Shown here: positions 47,138 through 59,611 of the stretch, piece after piece
Layout: every line of letters begins with the position of its first letter
Numbering within the stretch: the first letter of the stretch is position 1
Source of the DNA: Streptomyces sp. CB01635
GTDB lineage: Bacteria; Actinomycetota; Actinomycetes; Streptomycetales; Streptomycetaceae
Direction: 5' to 3'
Assembly (NCBI RefSeq): GCF_002803065.1
Contig: NZ_NNBL01000003.1
Coordinates: forward strand, 827,461 to 891,460
Length of the DNA stretch: 64,000 nt
Notes under the pieces: generated by a model
Database searches by the model: none
Told to the model about the DNA's origin: nothing
What the model saw: only the letters and a program-made list of their open reading frames with translations
Translations under genes and position numbers: made by a program

Positions 47138-48361
47138 TTAGCCCAGCACCCTCCCCAGCGCGGCGAGCGCCGACTCCAGCTCTTCGCGGGTGATGGTCAG
47201 GGGCGGGGCCAGGCGGATCGTCGAACCGTGGGTGTCCTTGACCAACACGCCCTCGTCCAGGAGGAGTTCGCTGATCCGGCGGCCCGTGCCGATGGCCGGG
47301 TCGATGTCGACGCCCGCCCATAGACCGCGGGCTCGGAAGGCATTGACTCCCTTACCGGTCAGGGCTTCGAGCCCGGCGCGCAGCACCTCGCCCAGATCCG
47401 CCGCCCGGCGCTGGAATTCGCCGGTGGCGAGCAGGTCGACGACGGCGGAGCCGACCGCCGCGGACAGCGGATTCCCGCCGAACGTGGAACCGTGCTCGCC
47501 CGGCCGCAGCACCCCCAGGACGTCCCGCCCCGCGACGACCGCCGACACCGGCACGATGCCGCCGCCGAGCGCCTTGCCGAGGAGCAGCATGTCGGGGCGT
47601 ACGGCCTCGTGGTCGACGGCGAGCGTGCGGCCCGTGCGGCCGAGCCCCGACTGGATCTCGTCGGCGATGAACAGGCAGCCGGCCCGCCGCGTCAGATCGC
47701 GTACCCCGGTGAGATAGCCGTCGTCCGGGATGACCACCCCGGCCTCGCCCTGGATGGGTTCGAGCAGGACGGCCGCTGTCGTCTCGTCGACCGCCGCCTC
47801 CAGCGCGGACAGGTCGTTGTAGGGGACCACGCGGAAGCCCGGCGTGAACGGCCCGAACCCGGCGCGGGCCGACTCGTCCGTGGAGAAGCTGACGATCGTG
47901 GTCGTCCGGCCGTGGAAGTTGCCGTCCGCCACGACGATCGTCGCCCGGTCCGCGGGGACGCCCTTGACCTCGTACGCCCACTTACGGGCGACCTTGACGG
48001 CGCTCTCCACGGCCTCGGCGCCCGTGTTCATCGGCAGCACCATGTCGAGCCCGGTCAGCTCCGCGAGGCCCTCGGCGAAGCCGGCCAGACGGTCGTTGTG
48101 GAAGGCGCGCGACGTCAGTGTGAGCTGGTCGAGCTGACGGTGGGCGGCCTCGATGAGGGCGGGGTGGCGGTGGCCGAAGTTGAGGGCCGAGTAACCCGCG
48201 AGGAGGTCGAGGTAGCGGCGGCCCTCGACGTCCTCGACCCAGGTGCCCTCGGCGCGGGCGACGACGACGGGAAGGGGGTGGTAGTTGTGCGCGAGCACCG
48301 GTGTCTCGGCGCTGATGAGCTCGGCAGAGGAACGCGCGGCCTGGACGGGGGCGACGGTCAT
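47138..48361 (-). CDS. rocD: Ornithine aminotransferase
   Basis: 407 residues, class III aminotransferase. The PLP lysine is in LLLGKALGGGIVPVSAV, Asp in FIADEIQSGLGRTGR, and MNTGAEAVESAVKVARKW is the signature of ornithine-oxo-acid transaminases. It converts ornithine and 2-oxoglutarate to glutamate semialdehyde and glutamate in arginine/proline metabolism. ATG 48361 has AGGAGA upstream. It overlaps ddaH by four bases (48358-48361), so arginine-derived compounds are processed in one operon. Confidence 0.93.
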   Translation of the reverse strand: MTVAPVQAARSSAELISAETPVLAHNYHPLPVVVARAEGTWVEDVEGRRYLDLLAGYSALNFGHRHPALIEAAHRQLDQLTLTSRAFHNDRLAGFAEGLAELTGLDMVLPMNTGAEAVESAVKVARKWAYEVKGVPADRATIVVADGNFHGRTTTIVSFSTDESARAGFGPFTPGFRVVPYNDLSALEAAVDETTAAVLLEPIQGEAGVVIPDDGYLTGVRDLTRRAGCLFIADEIQSGLGRTGRTLAVDHEAVRPDMLLLGKALGGGIVPVSAVVAGRDVLGVLRPGEHGSTFGGNPLSAAVGSAVVDLLATGEFQRRAADLGEVLRAGLEALTGKGVNAFRARGLWAGVDIDPAIGTGRRISELLLDEGVLVKDTHGSTIRLAPPLTITREELESALAALGRVLG

Positions 48362-49185
48362 GAACGGATCTCCTGGGTGCAGCACTTGATGCCTCCGCCG
48401 GCCTTGTGGAACTCGGAGAGGTCGACGGGGACGGGGACGTATCCGCGGTGGGTGAGCTGTGCGATGAGCCCGGTGGCCTGCGGGGCGACGAAGACATGAC
48501 GGCCGTCGGAGACGGAGTTGAGGCCGAAGGCCATCGCGTCCTCGCGGGTGGCGAGCACGGCGCTCGGGAAGAGCCGCGCGAGCACCTCGCGGCTCCCGGC
48601 CGAGAACGCCTCCGGGTAGTACGCGATGGTGCCGCCGTCCGGATCATCTGGATCAACCGGATCGTCTGGGTGATCGAGGGCGAACAGCGCGGTGTCCAGG
48701 TGGTAAAAGTACGGATCGACCAGGCGGAGTCCGATGACCGGTACGCCGAAGAACTCCTGCGCCTCGTCGTGCGCGGCACGCGTCGTACGGAATCCGCTGC
48801 CCGCGAGAACGTAGCGGCCCGCCGGTACGAGGTCGCCCTCGCCCTCGCAGACCGACTCCGGGCGGTGGACGTCGTAGCCCGCCGCCTTGAACCACGTCTC
48901 GTACTCCGCGGACTCGGGGCGGCGTTGCTCCGCATGGAAGTGGGAGCCGAGAACACGGCCGGCCACGACGAGCGCCGAGTTCGCGGCGAACACCATGTCG
49001 GGCAGGCCCGGGACGGGCGGCACGGTTTCCACGGTGTGTCCGTGCGCGCGGTAGGTCTCGATGAGGTTCTGCCATTGCGCGATGGCGAGCGCGGTGTCGA
49101 CCCGCACGTCGTCACGCATCCACGGGTTGATGGCGTACTGAACGTCGAAGTATCGAGGCTCGCACACCAGATAGCGCCTGGGCAC
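48358..49185 (-). CDS. ddaH: Dimethylargininase / amidinotransferase-fold hydrolase
   Basis: 275 residues from GTG 49185 with GGAGG nine bases upstream; a longer TTG start at 49215 is weaker. PRRYLVCEPRYFDVQYAINP is the beginning of DDAH/arginine-deiminase-like proteins; the His is in YFYHLDTALFALD, and the catalytic Cys is in GGGIKCCTQEIRS. The reaction would be hydrolysis of (methyl)arginine to citrulline or ornithine-like products. With rocD downstream it fits arginine-derived nitrogen catabolism. Confidence 0.88.
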   Translation of the reverse strand: MPRRYLVCEPRYFDVQYAINPWMRDDVRVDTALAIAQWQNLIETYRAHGHTVETVPPVPGLPDMVFAANSALVVAGRVLGSHFHAEQRRPESAEYETWFKAAGYDVHRPESVCEGEGDLVPAGRYVLAGSGFRTTRAAHDEAQEFFGVPVIGLRLVDPYFYHLDTALFALDHPDDPVDPDDPDGGTIAYYPEAFSAGSREVLARLFPSAVLATREDAMAFGLNSVSDGRHVFVAPQATGLIAQLTHRGYVPVPVDLSEFHKAGGGIKCCTQEIRS

Positions 49186-49284
49186 AGACGGGTACCTCCG
49201 CTTCCGGCGGGACAACGATCAGAGGGTGTCTCCACGGTAGGAAGCGGAAGTCGCGCTCGACAAGAGCATTTGGATGCGTGTGCC

Positions 49285-49299
49285 CGCAGTAATGCTGCG
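49285..49299. promoter_or_regulatory. Palindrome upstream of ddaH-rocD, possible Lrp site
   Basis: CGCAG-TAATG-CTGCG (49285-49299) is a perfect 5-bp-arm dyad with an AT-rich centre, as in Lrp/AsnC boxes. It lies 100 bases upstream of ddaH and just downstream of the Lrp gene. Assigned by position only. Confidence 0.4.
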
Positions 49300-49311
49300 C
49301 AGATATGGAGG

Positions 49312-49815
49312 TCAGCGCTGGTTTGCTGCGTCGTCCGGGGCGGGCTCGCGGGCGCCGGCCTCCGCGCTGTCCGGCAGCAGATGGGAAAGAACCATGTAGC
49401 TGATCGTCTTGCGGATGAACGGCTCGGCCCTGATGCGTTCGAGCACCTCTTCGAAATGGCCGACGTCCGTGGCCCTGACGTGCAGCAATGCGTCGGCGCC
49501 GCCCGTCACGGTCATCGCGGAGGTGATCTCCGGGTGGTTGCGCACGACTTCGGCGAGCCGACGAGGCGGCGCCGCGCCGTCGCAGTACACCTCGACGAAC
49601 GCCTCGGTGCTCCAGCCGAGCGCAGTCGGCCGGACCGTGGCGGTGTAGCCGGTGATGACGTCGTTCTCCCGCAGCCGGTCGGCGCGCCGCTTCACCGCGG
49701 TGGCGGACAGACCGATGGCCGCGCCGATCTCCGCGAAACTCGTCCTGGCGTTGGCGATCAGGGCGGCGACGATCTTGCGGTCGAGGTCGTCGAACGCGAC
49801 GTGCTTGCTGTTCAT
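49312..49815 (-). CDS. Lrp/AsnC family transcriptional regulator
   Basis: 167 residues, normal Lrp size. [20 protein letters not shown] and [20 protein letters not shown] form the HTH; the RAM domain holds [20 protein letters not shown]. It lies just upstream of ddaH-rocD on the same strand, and its start overlaps the PucR stop by four bases. It probably responds to an amino acid and regulates ddaH-rocD. Confidence 0.9.
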
Positions 49816-51011
49816 GGCCGGTGGTCCTTCTCGTGCTGGTCACGGGCGCGCAGGGCGAGGGCCACCAGGGCGGCGTCCTCGGGGCGCCGCACATCGCGGC
49901 CGGTCAGCTCGGCGAACCGGTTGATCCGCTGCTGGATCGTGTTGCGATGGCAGTACAGGGCGGCCGCGGTGTCCGCGACGGACCCGGTCCCGGCCAGGTG
50001 CGACCGTACGGTATCGAGGAGGCGTTTCGTCTCGCCGACGGGCACCGCTTCCGCGTCGAGCCCGCTGAGGACGTCGTCGGCGAGATCCCGCCCGAAGCCT
50101 TCCGCGCGCTGCACCAGGACATCGAGCCAGCTGTCCTCGAGCCGCCGTGGACCCGCGGCGTCCACCGGCAGCACGCGCGCCGTGGCCGTCGCGAGCACCA
50201 CGGCACGCGGCACCGCGGCAAGGCCCGCCGGGGCGGAAGCGACCCCGCACGGCGTCTCCTGAAGCAGCGCGAGCACGGTCTCCGCCGTGGTGCGCCGTCC
50301 CAGCTGCACGGCGAGGACCAGATCCGACGCGACCTCCTGCAACTGGACGGGTGTCTCCGCGGTGCGCAGCGCCGTCGCGGCCCTGCGCAGCCCCGCCCCG
50401 TGCTGCGGCGGCGCCACCGCGCACAGGAAGCGGTCGTCGGGCTGGAAGCCGAGAGCGAGCGCCGCGTCCCGTACCACCGTCGGATTGCGGCCCTCGCTGT
50501 CCAGGAGCCGGGCGAACCACATGCGCCGCTCGTCGGCCGCGCGGCGTCCCATGTCCAGGATGGTGCGCTGATACGCGGTCATGATCCCGGTGACATGCTT
50601 CTCCACGGCTTCCCACACGTGGTACGCGGACGTCACCAGCTCGGCCTTGTCCTTCTCGCCAGCCTTGTCGACCAGAGCCGCCCAGACCACGCGGAAGTCG
50701 AGGCGGGCCGCCGCGAGCAGGGAGTCCAGGGGGACGCCCTGCCGGGCGCGCCTCTCCCCGATCTCTTCGGAGACCGTGGCGATGCGCTCGGGCAGGGGCA
50801 GACAGGCGACCTTGCGCAGCAGGTACTCGAACGCCTGCCAGGCCGTGGCGCGGAAGTCCTCCTCCGAGACACGGTCCGCGTAGGAGGCACGGACAGGGCG
50901 TACGCACTCCACCCAGAGGCCGACGAGGCTGTCGATGTCCTCGAGGCAGCCCCGGGCCAGCTCGGTGACCCGGGGATCCGGGGGCGGGAAGAGGATGGGC
51001 TCACTGTTCAT
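49812..51011 (-). CDS. PucR family transcriptional regulator
   Basis: 399 residues from ATG 51011. A helical N-terminal domain precedes the C-terminal PucR/CdaR-type [23 protein letters not shown] followed by [20 protein letters not shown]. PucR proteins govern purine, allantoin and related nitrogen catabolism in Gram-positives. It is divergent from the urease-like operon and overlaps the Lrp gene. It is the prime candidate for regulating the ureAB-to-aldehyde-dehydrogenase operon. Confidence 0.88.
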
Positions 51012-51134
51012 GTGCACAATCCTGGCCGCCCCATCGGCGCCATATCAACGTTGGCTTCGCGCCAGACCCCGTGAATTCTTGGAGTGTCCGGCAGGCCGTG
51101 GCCGGAATTCCACTGCATGGAGGGCCGGGTAGCT

Positions 51135-51728
51135 GTGCATTTGACCCCTCGCGAGCTGGAGCGGATCCAGCTGTTCACCGTCGCTGAACTGGCGCGCCGC
51201 CGCAGGACGCGCGGGCGCCGGCTGAACGCGCCGGAGGCGATCGCCCTGATCTGCGACGAGGTTCTCGAAGCCGCCTGGGACGGCCTGAGCCTCGACGAAG
51301 TGATCGCGGCGGGCCGCAAGGTCCTCACCGAGGACGACGTCATGGACGGGGTGCCGCAGATGGTCACCACGATCCAGGTCGAGGCCCTGTTCCCGAGTGG
51401 TACGTCCTTGGTGGCGATCGACCACCCGATCCCCACCACGGGCGGAAGCGGCGAATCCGGGCCGGGAGCCGTCCGCACCGCACCAGACCCGGTCCTGATC
51501 AACACCGGCAGGCTCCGCTCGCGGCTGACCATCCGAAACAACGGCGACCGCACCGTCTACCTGTCCTCGCACTACCCGCTCGCCGAAGCGAACGCGGCCC
51601 TGGAGCTCGACCGCGAGGCCGCCGCGGGCATGCGGCTCGACATCCCGGCGGGCACCGCCCTGTCCTTCGAACCCGGCGCCGTACGCGAAGTCGACGTGGT
51701 GACGGCACGCCATGAGGAGGCGTCATGA
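51135..51728 (+). CDS. ureAB: Fused urease gamma-beta subunit (UreAB)
   Basis: 197 residues from GTG 51135 (HLTPRELERI, the canonical UreA start), with GGAGGG upstream. UreA part: LNAPEAIALICDEVLEAAWD, VMDGVPQMVTTIQVEALFPSG. UreB part: LTIRNNGDRTVYLSSHY, MRLDIPAGTALSFEPGAV. Fusions of gamma and beta occur in some bacteria. HYPL replaces the usual HYHF. Stop overlaps the next start by four bases (ATGA), so UreAB and UreC-like are made together. Confidence 0.9.
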   Translation: MHLTPRELERIQLFTVAELARRRRTRGRRLNAPEAIALICDEVLEAAWDGLSLDEVIAAGRKVLTEDDVMDGVPQMVTTIQVEALFPSGTSLVAIDHPIPTTGGSGESGPGAVRTAPDPVLINTGRLRSRLTIRNNGDRTVYLSSHYPLAEANAALELDREAAAGMRLDIPAGTALSFEPGAVREVDVVTARHEEAS

Positions 51729-53410
51729 CACAGGTCGACCGCCGCACGTACAACGCTCTCTACGGGCCCACGACCGGCGACCGGATCCGGCTCGGCGACA
51801 CGTGCTTGTGGGTCGAGGTGGAACAGGACGACGGCACACCGGGCGACGAACTGCTCGGCGGCTGCGGCAAGACGGTGCGCGACGGACTGCTCGCATCGCC
51901 GCGCTCCGAGCGGGACTCCGCGCTCGACATGGTGGTCGCGGGGGTGGTCCTGATGGACCCGGTGCTGGGCGTCCGCAAGACCGACATCGGCATCAAGGAC
52001 GGCCGGATCGTCGCCGTCGGCGGTGTCGGCAACCCGGATGTCATGGACGTCGACTTCGCCATCGACTCCCACACCTCGGTCATCCCGGGCGAGGGCCTGA
52101 TCGCCACCCCGGGCATCGTGGACAGCCACGTCCACCTCTCCTCGCCCGAGGTGGCACCCGCCGCGCTGTCCGCGGGAGTCACCACGCTCGTCGGCATGGG
52201 CCTCGGCGGCGTCTGGGAGATCGGCTGCAACCCGGCGCACAACCTGCACACCCTGATGGCGTCCTGGCGCGGCACCCCGCTCAACATCGCGTTCCTCGCC
52301 CGGGGTTCCTCCACCTCGCGCGCCCTGCTCGACGAGTCCGTACTCGCGGGCGCCGGCGGCTTCAAGATCCATGAGGACTTCGGGGCCACCCCGCGCATCA
52401 TCGAGACGTGCCTGGGCACCGCGGAACAGGCGGACCTGCCCGTCGCCATGCACACCGACTCCATGAACGAGTCCGGCTATCTGCGCGACACCATCGGCGC
52501 CACCCGCGGCCGCACCGTGCACGCCTACCATGTCGAGGGCGGCGGCGGTCACCCCGACCTCCTGGAGATCCTCTCCGAGCCCAACGTGCTTCCCTCGTCG
52601 ACCACCCCGACGGTTCCGTACACCGCCAACACCGTCGGCGAGCTCTTCCCGATGACGATGACGGTCCACCGGCAGAACCACCACTCGCCCAGCGACATCG
52701 AGATCTCCAAGGGCCGCATCCGCGGCCATGCCATCGCCGCCGAGAACGCCCTGCACGACCTGGGTGCGATCAGCATCGTCAACTCCGACTCCATGGGCAT
52801 GGGCCGGATGGCCGAGACCGTGCGCAGGACCTGGCAGCTCGCCCATGTCCAGGCCCTCGCGAACGGCGCCGGGGGAGTGGAACACGCCGCCAACGCACGA
52901 GCGTTGCGCTATCTGGCGAAGATCACCCTGAACCCGGCGATCGCGCACGGCCTGGCCCACGAGGTCGGCTCCCTCCAGCCGGGCCGCATGGCCGACCTCG
53001 TCCTGTGGCACCCCGCCTGGTTCGGTACCAAGCCCGAACTCGTCGTCAAGGGCGGCTTCGTGGCCTGGGGCAACACCGGATCGGGCTCCGGCTCCACCCG
53101 CCTGACCCAGCCCCGCACCTACCGCCCCTACTTCGGGGCACTCGGCGACGCCCCCGCACGCCTGTCCCGGATCTTCGTCGCGCAGGCCGCCCTGGAGGAC
53201 CGGGCCGCCCGCGCCGCGCTCCCGCAGGGTCTGCAGTACGCGCCGATCGTCGGCGCACGGGGCCTGACCCGGGCCGACATGCTGCACAACACCGCCACGC
53301 CACGCGTCCACGTGCCGCGCGAGCCCGCTCCCGTCCTGGTCGACGACGTCCCCACCGGAACCGACGCCGTCACCGAACTGCCCCTCGCCCAACTGCACCA
53401 CTTCGCCTGA
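51725..53410 (+). CDS. ureC: Urease alpha subunit-like amidohydrolase, divergent
   Basis: 561 residues, UreC length and order. Metal-site residues: His135/His137 (DSHVHLSS), Lys214 for carbamylation and His216 (GGFKIHEDFGATP), His243 (MHTDSMNES), His269 (YHVEGGGGH), Asp355 (NSDSMGMGR). The flap is MTMTVHRQ: the cysteine (KAU C319) is Val314, with His315 kept. The "AGTHATTCTPG" pocket loop is replaced by LGGVWEIGCNPAH. No ureD/E/F/G are present nearby. It may be a urease with accessory proteins encoded elsewhere, or a nickel/other-metal amidohydrolase with another substrate. Confidence 0.88.
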   Translation: MTQVDRRTYNALYGPTTGDRIRLGDTCLWVEVEQDDGTPGDELLGGCGKTVRDGLLASPRSERDSALDMVVAGVVLMDPVLGVRKTDIGIKDGRIVAVGGVGNPDVMDVDFAIDSHTSVIPGEGLIATPGIVDSHVHLSSPEVAPAALSAGVTTLVGMGLGGVWEIGCNPAHNLHTLMASWRGTPLNIAFLARGSSTSRALLDESVLAGAGGFKIHEDFGATPRIIETCLGTAEQADLPVAMHTDSMNESGYLRDTIGATRGRTVHAYHVEGGGGHPDLLEILSEPNVLPSSTTPTVPYTANTVGELFPMTMTVHRQNHHSPSDIEISKGRIRGHAIAAENALHDLGAISIVNSDSMGMGRMAETVRRTWQLAHVQALANGAGGVEHAANARALRYLAKITLNPAIAHGLAHEVGSLQPGRMADLVLWHPAWFGTKPELVVKGGFVAWGNTGSGSGSTRLTQPRTYRPYFGALGDAPARLSRIFVAQAALEDRAARAALPQGLQYAPIVGARGLTRADMLHNTATPRVHVPREPAPVLVDDVPTGTDAVTELPLAQLHHFA

Positions 53411-53426
53411 GGGACGGACCCACCCC

Positions 53427-55082
53427 ATGCTTCTCGATCTGCTGGTGCGCAACGCGCGCATCCTCACCCTCGACGACGACCGGCCCTCCGCCCGCACCCT
53501 GGGCGTCCTGCACGGCAGGATCGCGGGACTCGACGAGGACGTCGAAGCCCTGCCCGCGCGGCGTGTCCTCGACGCGGGCGGCGCCACCCTCGTCCCCGGC
53601 TTCAACGACGCCCACTGCCACACCGCGTGGTTCGGCCTCACCCTCGCCCAGCTCGACCTGTCCAAGGCCCGGTCGGTGGACGAGGTGTACGCCGCCGTCG
53701 CCGACCACGCGGAAGGCCGGCCGCGGGACGCGTGGGTGATCGGCGCCGGGCTCGACCACCACAAGCTCGGCGGCGTCCAGCCGCACCGCGACGCACTCGA
53801 CCGCGCCGCGGGCGGCCGCCCGGTGTGGCTCAAGCACACCTCCGGACACGCCTGCATCGTCAACTCGCCTGTCCTGGAGAAGGCCGGAGCGCTGGCCGAC
53901 GGGTTCGCCGACCCCACCGGCGGCGTCGTCGCCCGAGACGCGGACGGGCGGCCCAACGGACTTCTCGAAGAGACCGCGCAGCAGCTCGTGCAACGCCAGG
54001 TGCTGCCGTATCCCATGGCCACCCTCGCCGACGCCATCGGCGCCGCCACCCGGCACTACCTCGCCGAGGGCATCACCAGCTTCACCGAAGCGGGCATCGG
54101 CGGCGGCTGGATCGGGCACAGCCCGGTGGAGCTCGCCGCCTATCAACTCAGCTGTGACAGTGGCCGGTTGCACACCCGGGCCCAGGTGATGGCCGCCTCC
54201 GACGTGCTGCACCCGCTCACCGCTCACGCCGACGACGCCATCACCCTCGGCCTCGACCTCGGCATGCGCACGGGCTTCGGCGACGACCGGCTCTCGCTGG
54301 GACCCGTAAAGATCTTCCTCGACGGCTCGCTCCTCGGCCGCACCGCCGCCGTCACCGAACCGTTCTGCGGCTGCCCCCACGACACGTCCGCCACCGGATA
54401 CTTCCAGGGCGACCCCGAGGCGATGGCCGACACCGTGGTGGCCGCGCACCGGGCCGGCTGGACCGTCGCTGCCCACGCCATCGGCGACCGGGCCGTCGAC
54501 CTCGCACTCGACACCTTCGCCCGCGCCCAACGGGTCCACCCACGCCCCGAGGTGCGCCACCGGATCGAGCACGCCGGAGTCGTACGCCCCGACCAGCTCG
54601 CCCGCTTCGCCGAGCTGCGCGCCGTGCCCGTGCCGCAGCACAACTTCCTGTACGCCTTCGGAGACGCCATGGCGGCAGCGCTCGGGCCGCAGCGCACCCC
54701 GTGGTCGTACCGGCTGCGTTCCCTGCTCGACCTGGGCATTGTCGTGCCCGGCAGCTCAGACCGGCCGGTCGCTCCCGGCGCCCCGCTGCCCGCGATGCAG
54801 TCGATGGTGGAGCGCCTCACCGAGACCGGCGCGCCCTTTGGCGCGGACGAGAGCGTCACGGCACTCGCCGCGCTGCGTGCCTGGACCGTCGGCTCCGCGC
54901 ACGCCACGGGCTACGGCGACCGCAAGGGCGTCCTGCGCCCCGGTCACCTGGCCGACTTCACCGTCCTGGACGCCGACCCCACCCGCATCTCGCCGGACCG
55001 TATCGGCGCGATCCGGATCCTGGCCACCTCTGTCGGCGGCACCGTCGCCCACGACCCGCTCGGCCTGACCGCCTTCGCCTGA
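53427..55082 (+). CDS. YtcJ-like metal-dependent amidohydrolase (second copy)
   Basis: 551 residues, same family and length as the protein at 27851-29506. Metal motif LVPGFNDAHCHTAWFG, then AHAIGDRAVDLALDTF, RHRIEHAGVVRPDQ and late Asp in GSSDRPVAPGAPLPAM. It starts 16 bases after the ureC-like stop and is followed by an MHS transporter. Family members hydrolyse formamides, ureido or cyclic amide compounds. In this operon it probably acts on the imported substrate, or on a metabolite of it. Confidence 0.9.
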   Translation: MLLDLLVRNARILTLDDDRPSARTLGVLHGRIAGLDEDVEALPARRVLDAGGATLVPGFNDAHCHTAWFGLTLAQLDLSKARSVDEVYAAVADHAEGRPRDAWVIGAGLDHHKLGGVQPHRDALDRAAGGRPVWLKHTSGHACIVNSPVLEKAGALADGFADPTGGVVARDADGRPNGLLEETAQQLVQRQVLPYPMATLADAIGAATRHYLAEGITSFTEAGIGGGWIGHSPVELAAYQLSCDSGRLHTRAQVMAASDVLHPLTAHADDAITLGLDLGMRTGFGDDRLSLGPVKIFLDGSLLGRTAAVTEPFCGCPHDTSATGYFQGDPEAMADTVVAAHRAGWTVAAHAIGDRAVDLALDTFARAQRVHPRPEVRHRIEHAGVVRPDQLARFAELRAVPVPQHNFLYAFGDAMAAALGPQRTPWSYRLRSLLDLGIVVPGSSDRPVAPGAPLPAMQSMVERLTETGAPFGADESVTALAALRAWTVGSAHATGYGDRKGVLRPGHLADFTVLDADPTRISPDRIGAIRILATSVGGTVAHDPLGLTAFA

Positions 55083-55159
55083 CCGCCTCCGCCAGAGGCA
55101 CGCTCCCCGCTCCACCGTCCCCCGACCGCCCAGGCGGTCACCGTCCCCCGGGAGATTCC

Positions 55160-56521
55160 GTGAGCTCCAACAGCACGACGCCGCCAACAGGCCGCACCGT
55201 CGCCGGCACCGCCGACATCAAGCGCCTCCTGTCCGCCGCGTTCATCGGCACCGCCCTCGAGTGGTACGACTACTTCCTCTACGGCACCGCGGCCGCGCTC
55301 GTCTTCAACAAGCTGTTCTTCCCCTCGCTCGACGCCACGACGGCGACCATCGCCTCCTTCGTGACCTTCGCCGTCGGCTTCGCGGCCCGGCCCATCGGCG
55401 CCGCTGTCTTCGGCCACATCGGCGACCGCTACGGACGCAAGGCCGCGCTGATCATCACGGTCGTCATGATGGGTGTCGCCACCGGCTGCATCGGCCTCCT
55501 CCCGTCGTACGACACCATCGGCATCTGGGCCCCCGTGCTGCTCGCCGTACTCCGCTTCGTGCAGGGCATCTCGGTCGGCGGGGAGTGGAGCGGCGCGATG
55601 CTCCTGACCCTGGAACACACGCCGAAGGAGAAGCACGGCAGCTACTCGGCGGTTCCCCAACTCGGCTCACCCGTGGGCACGTTGCTCTCCAGCGGCGCCT
55701 TCGCCCTGGTCGGCCTGCTGCCCGACGACGCCTTCTACGCGTGGGGCTGGCGCATCCCCTTCCTCGCCGCCTTCGGCCTGCTCGTCTTCGCGCTCTACCT
55801 GCGCCTGCGCATCGAGGAGTCCCCGGTCTTCCGCGCCATGATCGAGGACGCCGAGAAGAGCGGCCCCGCGCCCGCCCCCCTCATCGAAGCCTTCCGCAAG
55901 ACCTGGGGCCGCATGATCATCAGCGTCCTCGCGGCCTTCCTCGGCATCGGCGGCTTCTTCCTGCTGACCACCTTCATGATCTCGTACGGCACCGAACAGC
56001 TCGGCATCGCGAAGTCCGTGATGCTGAATGCCACGCTCCTTGCCGCCGTGGCCGAGATGGTCGTGATCTACATCGGCGGCCGGATCGCGGACCGCGTCGG
56101 CCCGTGGAAGGTGTGCGCCGTCGGCGGCGTGCTGTCCGTCCTGGTCGCCTTCCCGGTCTTCTGGCTCGTCGACACGGGGCAGACCGCCCTCGTCATCCTC
56201 GGTGTGACGCTCGGCGTCGCCGTCATCTCCATCCCTTACGCCACCATCGGCGCCGTCGTCACGGGCCTGTTCCCGGAGACCTTCCGCTACAGCGCCGTCG
56301 CCATGTCGTACAACCTCTCGGGTGTCCTCGGCGGGTTCGTCCCGCTGCTCGCCGCCTGGCTGACCGGCGTCACCGACGGCGCGTCCTGGGGCGTCGCCCT
56401 CCTCCTCGTCCTCATCGCCGCCTGCACCGCGGCCGGCTCCTTCCTGGCAGGCCCGCTGCTCGGCAGCCGGTCCACCACCACGCCCGAGAACACCTCCGCA
56501 CCTCAGAAGGCCACCGCATGA
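55160..56521 (+). CDS. MHS-type MFS transporter (second copy)
   Basis: 453 residues from GTG 55160 with GGAGA five bases upstream. GTALEWYDYFLYGTAAALVF, FGHIGDRYGRKAALIITVVM and FVQGISVGGEWSGAMLLTLE are MHS signatures, strongly similar to the transporter at 29554. It imports a small organic acid or zwitterion with protons. Its stop overlaps the ThDP-enzyme start (ATGA), so transport is coupled to the downstream pathway. Cytoplasmic-membrane protein with 12 segments. Confidence 0.92.
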   Translation: MSSNSTTPPTGRTVAGTADIKRLLSAAFIGTALEWYDYFLYGTAAALVFNKLFFPSLDATTATIASFVTFAVGFAARPIGAAVFGHIGDRYGRKAALIITVVMMGVATGCIGLLPSYDTIGIWAPVLLAVLRFVQGISVGGEWSGAMLLTLEHTPKEKHGSYSAVPQLGSPVGTLLSSGAFALVGLLPDDAFYAWGWRIPFLAAFGLLVFALYLRLRIEESPVFRAMIEDAEKSGPAPAPLIEAFRKTWGRMIISVLAAFLGIGGFFLLTTFMISYGTEQLGIAKSVMLNATLLAAVAEMVVIYIGGRIADRVGPWKVCAVGGVLSVLVAFPVFWLVDTGQTALVILGVTLGVAVISIPYATIGAVVTGLFPETFRYSAVAMSYNLSGVLGGFVPLLAAWLTGVTDGASWGVALLLVLIAACTAAGSFLAGPLLGSRSTTTPENTSAPQKATA

Positions 56522-58191
56522 CCCAGCACCACCCCGCCCGTCCCGGCGGCCAGGTCCTCATCGACCAGCTGTCCGCACACGGCGTCGAGGCCGTCTACGG
56601 CGTGCCCGGCGAGAGCTACCTCGCCGCGCTCGACGCCCTGCACGACGCCCCCGTCCACATGGTCGTCTGCCGCCACGAAGGCGGCGCCGCCTACATGGCC
56701 GAGGCCCACGGCAAACTCACCGGGCGCCCCGGAGTCTGCTTCACGACCCGGGGCCCCGGGGCCACCAACGCGCTGGTCGCTCTGCACACCGCGCACCAGG
56801 ACGCCACGCCGATGGTCCTGTTCATCGGCCTGGTGCCGCGCGGGCACACGGACCGCGCCTCCTTCCAGGAACTCGACCTGCGCGGCACGTTCGGCGCGAG
56901 CGCCAAGCTCGTCGAGACCATCGACGACGCCGTGCGCATCCCCGAGTACGTCGCCCGCGCGTTCGCCGTCGCGAGCAGCGGCCGGCCGGGACCCGTGGTC
57001 CTGGGTCTGCCGGAGGACATGCTCACGGACGTCGTACGGGTCGCCGACGCAACCCCGCTGCCCGTACCCGGCGGCGGCGTGACCCCGGCCGAACTCACTT
57101 CCCTGGAAAGGCTGTTGACGTCTGCCGAACGCCCCCTGCTCTTCCTCGGCGGCGGCCGCTGGACCCCGGACGCCCGCGCCGCCGTACGGGACTGGGCCGA
57201 GGCGTGGTCCCTGCCCGTGACGGTGGACTTCCGCTGCCAGGACCTCATCGACAACGAGTCCGAGGTGTACGTCGGCCCGCTCGGCTACGGACGCGACGAC
57301 GCGCTCGCGCAGCGGGTGCGCGAGGCCGACCTTCTGCTGGCACTCGGGACCGCACCGGGTGACGTCGCGACCGACGGGTTCACGCTGCTTCCCATCGACG
57401 GAACCGGACCCCGGCTCGTCCAGGTGCTGCCCGAAGCGCAGCCGCCGGGCGCCCTGTACCCCGCCGAACTCACCCTGCTCGCCGCCCCCGAGGCATTCGC
57501 GGACGCGGTACGCACCCTGCGCCCCGGCAACCCCCTGCCGTGGGCCGTGCGGACCAAGCAGGACAGGGCCGCCCATCTGGCGTTCCGCACCCCGGTCCCC
57601 GAGGAGGACCCGCTCGACCTCGCCACCGTCTTCGCCACCCTCGACGACCGGCTGCCCGCGGACGCCGTCATCACCTTCGGCGCCGGCAACCACGCCATCT
57701 GGGCGCAGCGCTTCCTCACCTACCACGACGGCACACGCCAACTCGCCCCCCGCAACGGGTCCATGGGATACGGCATACCCGCCGCCGTGGCCGCCGCGAT
57801 CCACGATCCGGACCGCCGGGTCGTCTCCGTCGCGGGCGACGGCTGCTTCCTGATGAACGGTCAGGAACTGGCCACCGCCGTGGCCGAGGGCGCCAAGCCG
57901 CTGATCATCGTGCTGAACAACGCCAAGTACGGCACCATCCGCCAGCACCAGGAGCAGGCCTACCCGGGGCGGGTCAGCGGCACAGGACTCGGCAACCCCG
58001 ACTTCGCCGCGTACGCCCGCGCCTTCGGCGCCCACGGCGAAACCGTCACTGTCACAGGCGAGTTCGGGCCCGCGCTCCAGCGGTCCCTCGACAGCGGCAA
58101 GGCCGCCCTCATCGAGCTGAAGGTGACCGACGGGCGCCTGGGCCCCGGTGTCACTGTCGCCTCCCTGCGCAAGGAGAGCTGCCATGTCTGA
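56518..58191 (+). CDS. Thiamine-diphosphate enzyme (acetolactate synthase / 2-oxoacid decarboxylase type)
   Basis: 557 residues with the three ThDP-enzyme domains. Catalytic Glu54 (VVCRHEGGAAYMAEA), GRPGPVVLGLPED, and the ThDP/Mg motif starting GDGCFLMNGQELATAV and ending in LNNAKYG. No FAD-binding acetolactate-synthase regulatory features are clear. In this context a 2-oxo acid decarboxylase giving an aldehyde for the next gene product (as AruI does with 2-ketoarginine) is more natural than branched-chain biosynthesis. Overlaps both neighbours, so co-translated. Confidence 0.85.
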   Translation: MTQHHPARPGGQVLIDQLSAHGVEAVYGVPGESYLAALDALHDAPVHMVVCRHEGGAAYMAEAHGKLTGRPGVCFTTRGPGATNALVALHTAHQDATPMVLFIGLVPRGHTDRASFQELDLRGTFGASAKLVETIDDAVRIPEYVARAFAVASSGRPGPVVLGLPEDMLTDVVRVADATPLPVPGGGVTPAELTSLERLLTSAERPLLFLGGGRWTPDARAAVRDWAEAWSLPVTVDFRCQDLIDNESEVYVGPLGYGRDDALAQRVREADLLLALGTAPGDVATDGFTLLPIDGTGPRLVQVLPEAQPPGALYPAELTLLAAPEAFADAVRTLRPGNPLPWAVRTKQDRAAHLAFRTPVPEEDPLDLATVFATLDDRLPADAVITFGAGNHAIWAQRFLTYHDGTRQLAPRNGSMGYGIPAAVAAAIHDPDRRVVSVAGDGCFLMNGQELATAVAEGAKPLIIVLNNAKYGTIRQHQEQAYPGRVSGTGLGNPDFAAYARAFGAHGETVTVTGEFGPALQRSLDSGKAALIELKVTDGRLGPGVTVASLRKESCHV

Positions 58192-59611
58192 TCTGACCCT
58201 GCACAACATCGTCGACGGCCGCAGTACCGAGGTCGCGGACCGCATGGAGCTGACCGACCCCGCAACGGGTGAGGTCTACGGCACCGCGCCCCGCTCGTCC
58301 GCCGCGCACGTGGACGCGGCCGTGGCCGCCGCGCGCCGGGCCCTGCCCGCCTGGCGCCGCAGCACCCCGGCCCAGCGGCAGGAGGCACTCCTGCGCCTCG
58401 CCGACCTCGTGACCGCCCACGCGGACGAGCTGGTCGACGCGGAAGTGCGCAGCACCGGCAAGCCGCGCGAGACGACCCGCACCCTCGAAGTCGGCCGCGG
58501 CGCCGACCAGTTGCGCTTCTTCGCGGGCGCCGCCCGTGTCCTGGAGGGCGTTGCCGCGGGCGAGTATGCGCAGGGCCACACCTCGTACGTCCGCCGCGAG
58601 GCCGTGGGGGTCGTCGCCCAGGTCACGCCCTGGAACTATCCGCTGATGATGGCCGTGTGGAAGCTCGGCCCCGCGCTCGCCGCGGGCAACACGGTGGTCC
58701 TCAAGCCGTCCGACACCACGCCCTGGTCGACCGTCCTGCTCGGCGAACTCGCCGCGCGCGTCTTCCCGCCGGGCGTCGTCAACATCGTGTGCGGCGACCG
58801 GGACACCGGACGCGCGCTCGTCGCCCATCCGGACGTGGACATGGTGGCCATCACCGGCAGCACCCGGGCCGGCTCCGAGGTCATGGCCGAGGCCTCCCGC
58901 GAGGTCAAGAACGTCCACCTGGAGCTGGGCGGCAAGGCTCCGGCCGTCGTCTTCGCCGACGTCGACCCCGTCCGCACGGCCCGCGCCCTCGCCGACGCCG
59001 CCTTCTTCAACGGCGGCCAGGACTGCACTGCCGTGACCCGGATCCTGGTCCAACGCACGCTCTACGAAGCCCTGTTGACGGCCCTCGTCGATGCCGCCCG
59101 CGACACCCGGACAGGCTCACCGGACGAGGACGTCTTCTACGGTCCTCTCAACAGCGCCGCCCACGCCGCCCGCGTCGAGTCCGTCATCGCGACGCTCCCG
59201 GAGCACGCCCATGTAGAGACTGGGGGCCGGCGCGTCGACCGGCCCGGCTACTTCTTCCCGCCCACCGTCATCTCCGGTGTCCGCCAGGACGACGACGTGG
59301 TGCAGGGCGAGATCTTCGGCCCCGTCGTCACCGTCCAGCCCTTCGACACCGAGGAAGAGGCCGTCGCCCTGGCCAACGGCGTCGACCTCGGCCTGGCGTC
59401 CAGCGTATGGACCGCCGATCTGGGCCGCGCCATGCGGCTGAGCGCCGAACTCGACTTCGGCTGCGTCTGGCTCAACTGCCACCAGGTGGTCCTCGCCGAG
59501 ATGCCCCACGGCGGATACAAGCAGTCGGGCATCGGCAGCGACCTGAGCCGCTACGGCTTCGACGACTACACGCGGATCAAGCACGTCATGGCCGCGCACG
59601 TCACGCCCTGA
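58184..59611 (+). CDS. Aldehyde dehydrogenase, aminobutyraldehyde-type
   Basis: 475 residues. Asn151 (TPWNYPLMMAVW), Glu247 (HLELGGKAP) and Cys281 (GGQDCTAVTRIL) are the catalytic set. NCHQVVLAEMPHGGYKQSG and YGFDDYTRIKHVM resemble gamma-aminobutyraldehyde / guanidinobutyraldehyde dehydrogenases. It would oxidise the aldehyde from the upstream ThDP enzyme to an acid with NAD(P)+. Starts eight bases inside the end of that gene. Last gene of the operon. Confidence 0.9.
   Translation: MSDLTLHNIVDGRSTEVADRMELTDPATGEVYGTAPRSSAAHVDAAVAAARRALPAWRRSTPAQRQEALLRLADLVTAHADELVDAEVRSTGKPRETTRTLEVGRGADQLRFFAGAARVLEGVAAGEYAQGHTSYVRREAVGVVAQVTPWNYPLMMAVWKLGPALAAGNTVVLKPSDTTPWSTVLLGELAARVFPPGVVNIVCGDRDTGRALVAHPDVDMVAITGSTRAGSEVMAEASREVKNVHLELGGKAPAVVFADVDPVRTARALADAAFFNGGQDCTAVTRILVQRTLYEALLTALVDAARDTRTGSPDEDVFYGPLNSAAHAARVESVIATLPEHAHVETGGRRVDRPGYFFPPTVISGVRQDDDVVQGEIFGPVVTVQPFDTEEEAVALANGVDLGLASSVWTADLGRAMRLSAELDFGCVWLNCHQVVLAEMPHGGYKQSGIGSDLSRYGFDDYTRIKHVMAAHVTP

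Follow-up and report, generated by a model that had tools for sequence, protein, structure and literature searches.

What does a urease-like complex do in an operon that has no adjoining urease accessory genes? Urease is the textbook example of a nickel enzyme with a single substrate and a need for dedicated assembly proteins. The question is raised by a 64,000-nt stretch of DNA from Streptomyces sp. CB01635 (contig NZ_NNBL01000003.1, positions 827,461 to 891,460; the whole stretch is called the window here), in which six plus-strand genes encode a fused urease gamma-beta subunit homologue (UreAB), a UreC-like catalytic subunit, an Amidohydro_3 amidohydrolase (AH3), a permease of the metabolite:H+ symporter (MHS) family, a thiamine diphosphate-dependent (ThDP) enzyme and an aldehyde dehydrogenase (ALDH), divergently from a gene for a PucR-type regulator. 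The first-pass annotation of the window had placed these six genes in one row, with pucR divergent and Lrp, ddaH and rocD as minus-strand neighbours. We find all six to be present, collinear and overlapping or closely spaced (three overlaps of 4–8 bp, one 16-bp gap and one gap of ~77 bp), and the neighbours to lie where they had been put. As set out below, UreAB and the UreC-like protein probably form an N-carbamoyl (ureido) amidohydrolase that derives from urease, is independent of accessory proteins and belongs to a PucR-controlled operon for ureide degradation, a reading that we base on sequence comparison.

All three urease domains are present in the pair (Pfam PF00547, PF00699 and PF00449), and the nearest structural relatives of both proteins are ureases. 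The top Protein Data Bank (PDB) match of UreAB, whose gene starts with GTG behind a GGAGGG at 51119–51124, is Helicobacter UreA. The clade of the window's UreC-like protein shares with the nickel urease UreABC of Klebsiella and Sporosarcina the make-up of gamma, beta and alpha subunits, as well as every metal ligand and the position of the carbamylated Lys. When 63 UreC proteins are aligned (Klebsiella numbering), 48 of them from the window's clade, the metal ligands H134, H136, K217, H246, H272 and D360, the catalytic H219 and H320, and R336 are invariant in 48/48 clade members. The clade differs from nickel urease in that the flap residue Cys319 is replaced by Val in all 48 members, the residue beside the flap (H321) is Arg in 46 and Gly in 2, and the canonical substrate loop GGGTGPA gives way to a conserved GMGxGGVW[DE][IV]GxNP, which is 4 residues shorter than the GGGTGPAEGSKATTITPG of the canonical UreC from the same genome. 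The four canonical Streptomyces rows of the alignment retain both the flap Cys and the loop. The substrate loop is not diagnostic by itself, because some accessory-linked proteobacterial rows also deviate in it. In a maximum-likelihood tree of 60 sequences, rooted at midpoint only, a branch with 100/100 support separates 45 clade members from the accessory-linked ureases. The UreC-like protein also falls under the urease equivalog cut-offs (570.1 vs 680 for TIGR01792 and 573 vs 907 for PRK13206), the sole curated urease alpha model that it passes being the broad subfamily PRK13207. A pseudogene or decayed duplicate was considered and rejected, as the catalytic residues are invariant across genera. 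An AlphaFold model of the UreC-like protein that was built on 18 sequences had a poor pLDDT of 69 and was left aside.

The clade further differs from nickel urease in being carried by genomes that lack the assembly proteins. The host genome (10.06 Mb) contains four UreC-type genes and one UreD, the latter located with the canonical cluster. UreD is present in 29 of the 39 genomes that carry the clade and absent from the other 10; in these ten neither UreF nor UreG was found over cut-off (UreE was not searched for), and their single UreC is in each case that of the clade. The same searches returned both UreF and UreG from six control genomes. Three of the ten carriers are metagenome-assembled genomes and seven are isolates, namely Streptomyces daqingensis, Streptomyces sp. 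WMMB 322, Pseudonocardia nigra, P. terrae, Pseudonocardia sp. MH-G8, Actinomycetospora lemnae and Mobilicoccus caccae. Assembly gaps are unlikely to be the cause, because UreD, UreF, UreG and a canonical UreC are all absent together in the seven isolates. The ten genomes argue that the clade is independent of these accessory proteins, and its complex, as judged from gene content, cannot need UreD, UreF or UreG. For these ten carriers, the idea that accessory genes at other genomic sites assist the complex was rejected.

Comparison of loci, made by mapping all window genes and by calling genes with a codon-usage model, shows that the arrangement extends well beyond the window. Some 40 named actinobacterial records contain relatives of the UreC-like protein at ≥64% identity, one such relative, from Streptomyces sp. 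NBC_01446, being 99% identical, and they also occur in 8 of 199 Streptomyces genomes, the window's own included. In ~48 loci, from Streptomyces, Streptosporangium, Nonomuraea, Pseudonocardia, Actinomycetospora and other genera, pucR is divergent from ureAB-ureC-MHS with AH3 and often with the ThDP or ALDH gene. The conserved core consists of PucR and ureAB-ureC-AH3-MHS, with pucR adjoining ureAB in most loci; the ThDP and ALDH genes are additional in most Streptomyces, and the ThDP gene is joined to the core in some Pseudonocardia too. We conclude that the operon is a conserved gene set of soil actinobacteria and more than a chance arrangement. Conservation of gene order across genomes was one of the checks that the first-pass annotation had proposed, and the outcome supports its idea of a conserved catabolic operon with amide-cleaving enzymes that would release nitrogen.

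What the complex may do is suggested by operons from which it is missing. ThDP homologues were sought in 394 genomes of the class and their surroundings examined, and AH3 homologues likewise. The former search yielded MHS-RidA-RraA-ThDP-M20-ALDH in L133, L137 and L138, MHS-ThDP-AH3-M20 in L140 and MHS-ThDP-AH3 in L143; the latter yielded PucR/AH3-MHS together with an M20 enzyme in L167, L168 and L169. Among 57 loci with MHS and either AH3 or ThDP, 48 have ureC only, 7 have M20 only, none has both and 2 have neither. The RidA and RraA genes of three M20-type operons recur in the ure-type loci L089 and L090, with MHS-ThDP. In the sister operons it is the M20 enzyme that holds the position equivalent to that of the urease-like complex, beside the same set of partners (permease, AH3, ThDP, RidA, RraA and PucR). 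These M20 proteins belong to the hydantoinase/carbamoylase family, and among proteins of known function they are closest to beta-alanine synthase, N-carbamoyl-L-amino-acid hydrolase and allantoate amidohydrolase. In fold and sequence they are unrelated to the UreC-like protein, which matches only urease and amidohydrolase models. Because the replacement of the M20 gene in shared operons is exclusive, the most economical interpretation would have the urease-like complex stand in for an N-carbamoyl hydrolase.

The two types of operon also have a putative operator in common. A palindrome lying over the start codon of pucR in the window is found, with ≤4 mismatches, in 35/35 of the intergenic regions between pucR and ureAB in ure-type loci, where it sits at the start of pucR, and in the intergenic DNA upstream of 6/7 M20-type operons, against a background of 3 matches in 43 unrelated loci (680 kb). 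In related systems, inverted repeats serve as binding sites for regulators of the PucR family (GabR, PMC7652997). The common palindrome suggests that ure-type and M20-type operons may answer to the same regulator family and the same class of inducer. Another conserved element, TCAACGTTGG, occurs once in the 64 kb of the window; it keeps a fixed distance from the palindrome in the intergenic regions of Streptomyces, but not in those of Pseudonocardia.

Two further urease-like copies of the host genome, C59 and C45, form part of a sister clade. It shares with the window's clade the lack of adjoining accessory genes, the shortened substrate loop and the replaced flap Cys, but the two are separate (44–45% identity) and the partner differs, being an agmatine deiminase homologue rather than AH3, MHS and PucR. 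An agmatine-deiminase-family gene directly follows ureAB-ureC in 22/22 sister-clade loci (20/20 sampled Streptomyces as well as C59 and C45). The product of agmatine deiminase, N-carbamoylputrescine, is a ureido compound (PMC9397018). As the expected product of the neighbouring enzyme bears an N-carbamoyl group, this clade lends support to a ureidohydrolase reading. In none of 20 sister-clade genomes did a match to AguB exceed the curated cut-off, and related nitrilases were found in all of them, a result that neither proves nor excludes another carbamoyl hydrolase in these genomes. We tentatively extend the proposal to the possibility that at least two actinobacterial clades with the urease fold are accessory-free ureidohydrolases, acting on N-carbamoyl acids and on the agmatine-deiminase-type product, respectively, and have abandoned urea and nickel-chaperone assembly. 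The C45 locus additionally carries genes for an ABC transporter of the dipeptide type and more copies of the deiminase family.

From what was computed, namely the clade and its residues, the gene order, the absence of accessory genes, the alternation with M20 and the palindrome, we infer the reaction, the substrate class, the order of steps and the metal. The MHS permease would import a cyclic or linear ureide that carries an N-carbamoyl group, and AH3, where present, would open the ring or trim the substrate to a ureido compound. The complex of UreAB and the UreC-like protein, assembled without UreD, UreF or UreG and presumably bimetallic, would then take the place held in sister operons by the M20-family N-carbamoyl-amino-acid hydrolase and catalyse R-NH-CO-NH2 + H2O -> R-NH2 + CO2 + NH3 on an N-carbamoyl compound larger than free urea, and once the amine is released the ThDP enzyme and ALDH would process the carbon skeleton. 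Several points weigh against this proposal. The pathway is not uniform, since the AH3 gene is missing from some ure-type operons (L045, L050, L051, L089 and L090), is a mere remnant in L047, and is short, split or missing in L047, L050, L059 and L075. The locus counts are not independent, and the M20-type loci come from few genera. Replacement in context is no proof of the same reaction, as the two enzymes could act on different pathway intermediates, and urea itself could be the substrate of an active site that is still urease-like.

The last point leads to an alternative that we consider unlikely, namely that the complex is a true urease with relaxed maturation, hydrolysing urea freed in the pathway (for example by AH3) and loaded spontaneously with nickel or another metal, an enzyme comparable to Helicobacter UreA2B2. 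The full set of metal ligands, the urease gamma, beta and alpha domains and the ten carriers without accessory genes would all fit, and Helicobacter does have a second urease with an iron instead of a nickel cofactor, UreA2B2, which hydrolyses urea (PMC11541087). On the other hand, the consistent replacement of the flap Cys and the substrate loop and the scores below all urease equivalog cut-offs speak against it; the complex alternates with an N-carbamoyl hydrolase and not with a urea-handling enzyme, and most carriers already possess a canonical urease. Somewhat less probable still is that the complex acts on another amide or guanidino compound, such as formamide, a lactam, a carboxyguanidine-like compound or a guanidino acid, with the M20 enzymes serving a different step. 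The diversity of amide and imine substrates in the AH3 family would allow for this, as would the predicted fold of AH3 (pLDDT 85), which is nearest to two uncharacterised hydrolases (3igh and 3icj) and then to imidazolonepropionase and AtzC; these are relatives at the superfamily level only and indicate no substrate. However, those M20 relatives whose function is known cleave N-carbamoyl or ureido compounds, and the common neighbours and palindrome imply the same class of inducer.

The first-pass annotation had leaned towards arginine degradation via 2-ketoarginine, in which the ThDP enzyme would form 4-guanidinobutyraldehyde, the ALDH would oxidise it to 4-guanidinobutyrate and the urease would consume urea. 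Such a route appears plausible in that ddaH and rocD adjoin the operon in the window's species and the superfamilies of the ThDP enzyme and the ALDH would broadly suit it, but the Lrp-ddaH-rocD neighbourhood is seen only in L037 and L088, which are from the same or a nearly identical species, and therefore Lrp, ddaH and rocD are not part of the operon unit and the arginine context is incidental. The ThDP enzyme is not, as had been suggested, AruI-like (234.8 bits vs a cut-off of 500 for PRK07524, 5-guanidino-2-oxopentanoate decarboxylase), and the ALDH, called aminobutyraldehyde-type earlier and matching the gamma-aminobutyraldehyde dehydrogenase 6c43 in the PDB, reaches 498.5 against a cut-off of 909 for the aminobutyraldehyde equivalog and passes the broad PRK13473 alone. 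The operon has no guanidinobutyrase gene, and some ure-type operons have no ThDP or ALDH gene. We rejected this route, which we regard as very improbable, on the non-conserved arginine neighbours and the failed AruI model. What stands of the earlier view is a nitrogen-releasing operon for amide or ureide catabolism, with ureido acids, formerly one of its alternatives, as the best-fitting substrates; the accessory-independent, non-canonical urease-like clade and its alternation with M20 carbamoylases go beyond it.

That S. coelicolor and S. avermitilis have ure(AB)C clusters lacking accessory genes was remarked on in 2008 (PMC2492869), and these were later counted as urease genes (PMC5489568). 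Like the window's operon, such clusters combine a fused ureAB with an adjacent ureC and contain no accessory genes, but they were treated as ureases in those papers, and SCO5526 may belong to the agmatine-deiminase-linked clade instead of the window's. In the open-access literature we found no description of the window's clade, of its accessory independence or of a ureido-cleaving role, although absence there is no proof. While accessory-less Ure(AB)C pairs in Streptomyces were already known, the separation of the clades, the apparent accessory independence and the proposal of a substrate other than urea appear to be new here. If the proposal is correct, many second or third 'ureases' of Streptomyces would be a different class of enzyme and many actinobacterial 'urease' annotations would need correction. 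The urease scaffold would then have diversified in both substrate and maturation, and the clade would offer a natural setting in which the actual need for UreD, UreF and UreG could be examined. The six-gene operon, otherwise annotated by superfamily only, gains a testable function.

Table 1. Positions of the operon genes and regulatory elements in the window, and of the sister-clade loci
Feature	Position	Strand	Evidence or remark
pucR, divergent PucR-type regulator	49812-51017	-	PF13556 HTH_30 1.6e-19
Operator-like palindrome ATTGTGCA-N2-TGCACAAT, here ACTGTTCATGTGCACAAT	51003-51020	.	2 mismatches; over pucR start codon
Second conserved element TCAACGTTGG	51045-51054	+	between pucR and ureAB
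ureAB, fused urease gamma-beta subunit homologue, 197 aa	51135-51728	+	Urease_gamma 5e-37, Urease_beta 2.5e-27 (Pfam)
ureC-like catalytic subunit, 561 aa, distinct clade	51725-53410	+	Pfam and curated-model matches, residue alignment, tree
AH3, Amidohydro_3 (YtcJ-like) amidohydrolase	53427-55082	+	Pfam 1.5e-92
MHS-family MFS permease	about 55160-56521	+	TIGR00883 2e-115, 386 bits vs cut-off 443
ThDP-dependent enzyme, PRK08199 subfamily	56518-58191	+	719.7 bits vs cut-off 539; TPP domains
ALDH, PRK13473 subfamily	58184-59611	+	644 bits vs cut-off 615
Sister-clade loci	L096:10190-12962 (C59), L097:10334-13179 (C45), L144-L163 (20 Streptomyces loci)		

Some further features of these and related loci deserve mention. 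The minus-strand genes Lrp, ddaH and rocD (47138–49815) look like an arginine/dimethylarginine unit, and the ddaH product passes the mycobacterial-type dimethylargininase model (383 bits vs a cut-off of 300). In Pseudonocardia a class III aminotransferase gene recurs no more than 10 kb away from the operon (L060:18223-19473, with equivalents in L055, L056, L061, L066, L069, L070 and L073), whose product possibly acts on the released amine. A pyrimidine-type Streptomyces cluster, L131:2509-16484, which also came from the search for ThDP homologues, combines a dihydropyrimidinase, a homologue of carbamoyl-cleaving nitrilases, a class III aminotransferase, a ThDP enzyme, an ALDH and a permease called NCS1-type by inspection of its sequence. 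In a ure-type locus of Streptomyces (L093:38-2496) a nitrilase homologue of the same carbamoyl-cleaving kind, 72% identical to that of L131, and a second AH3 copy are found upstream of pucR.

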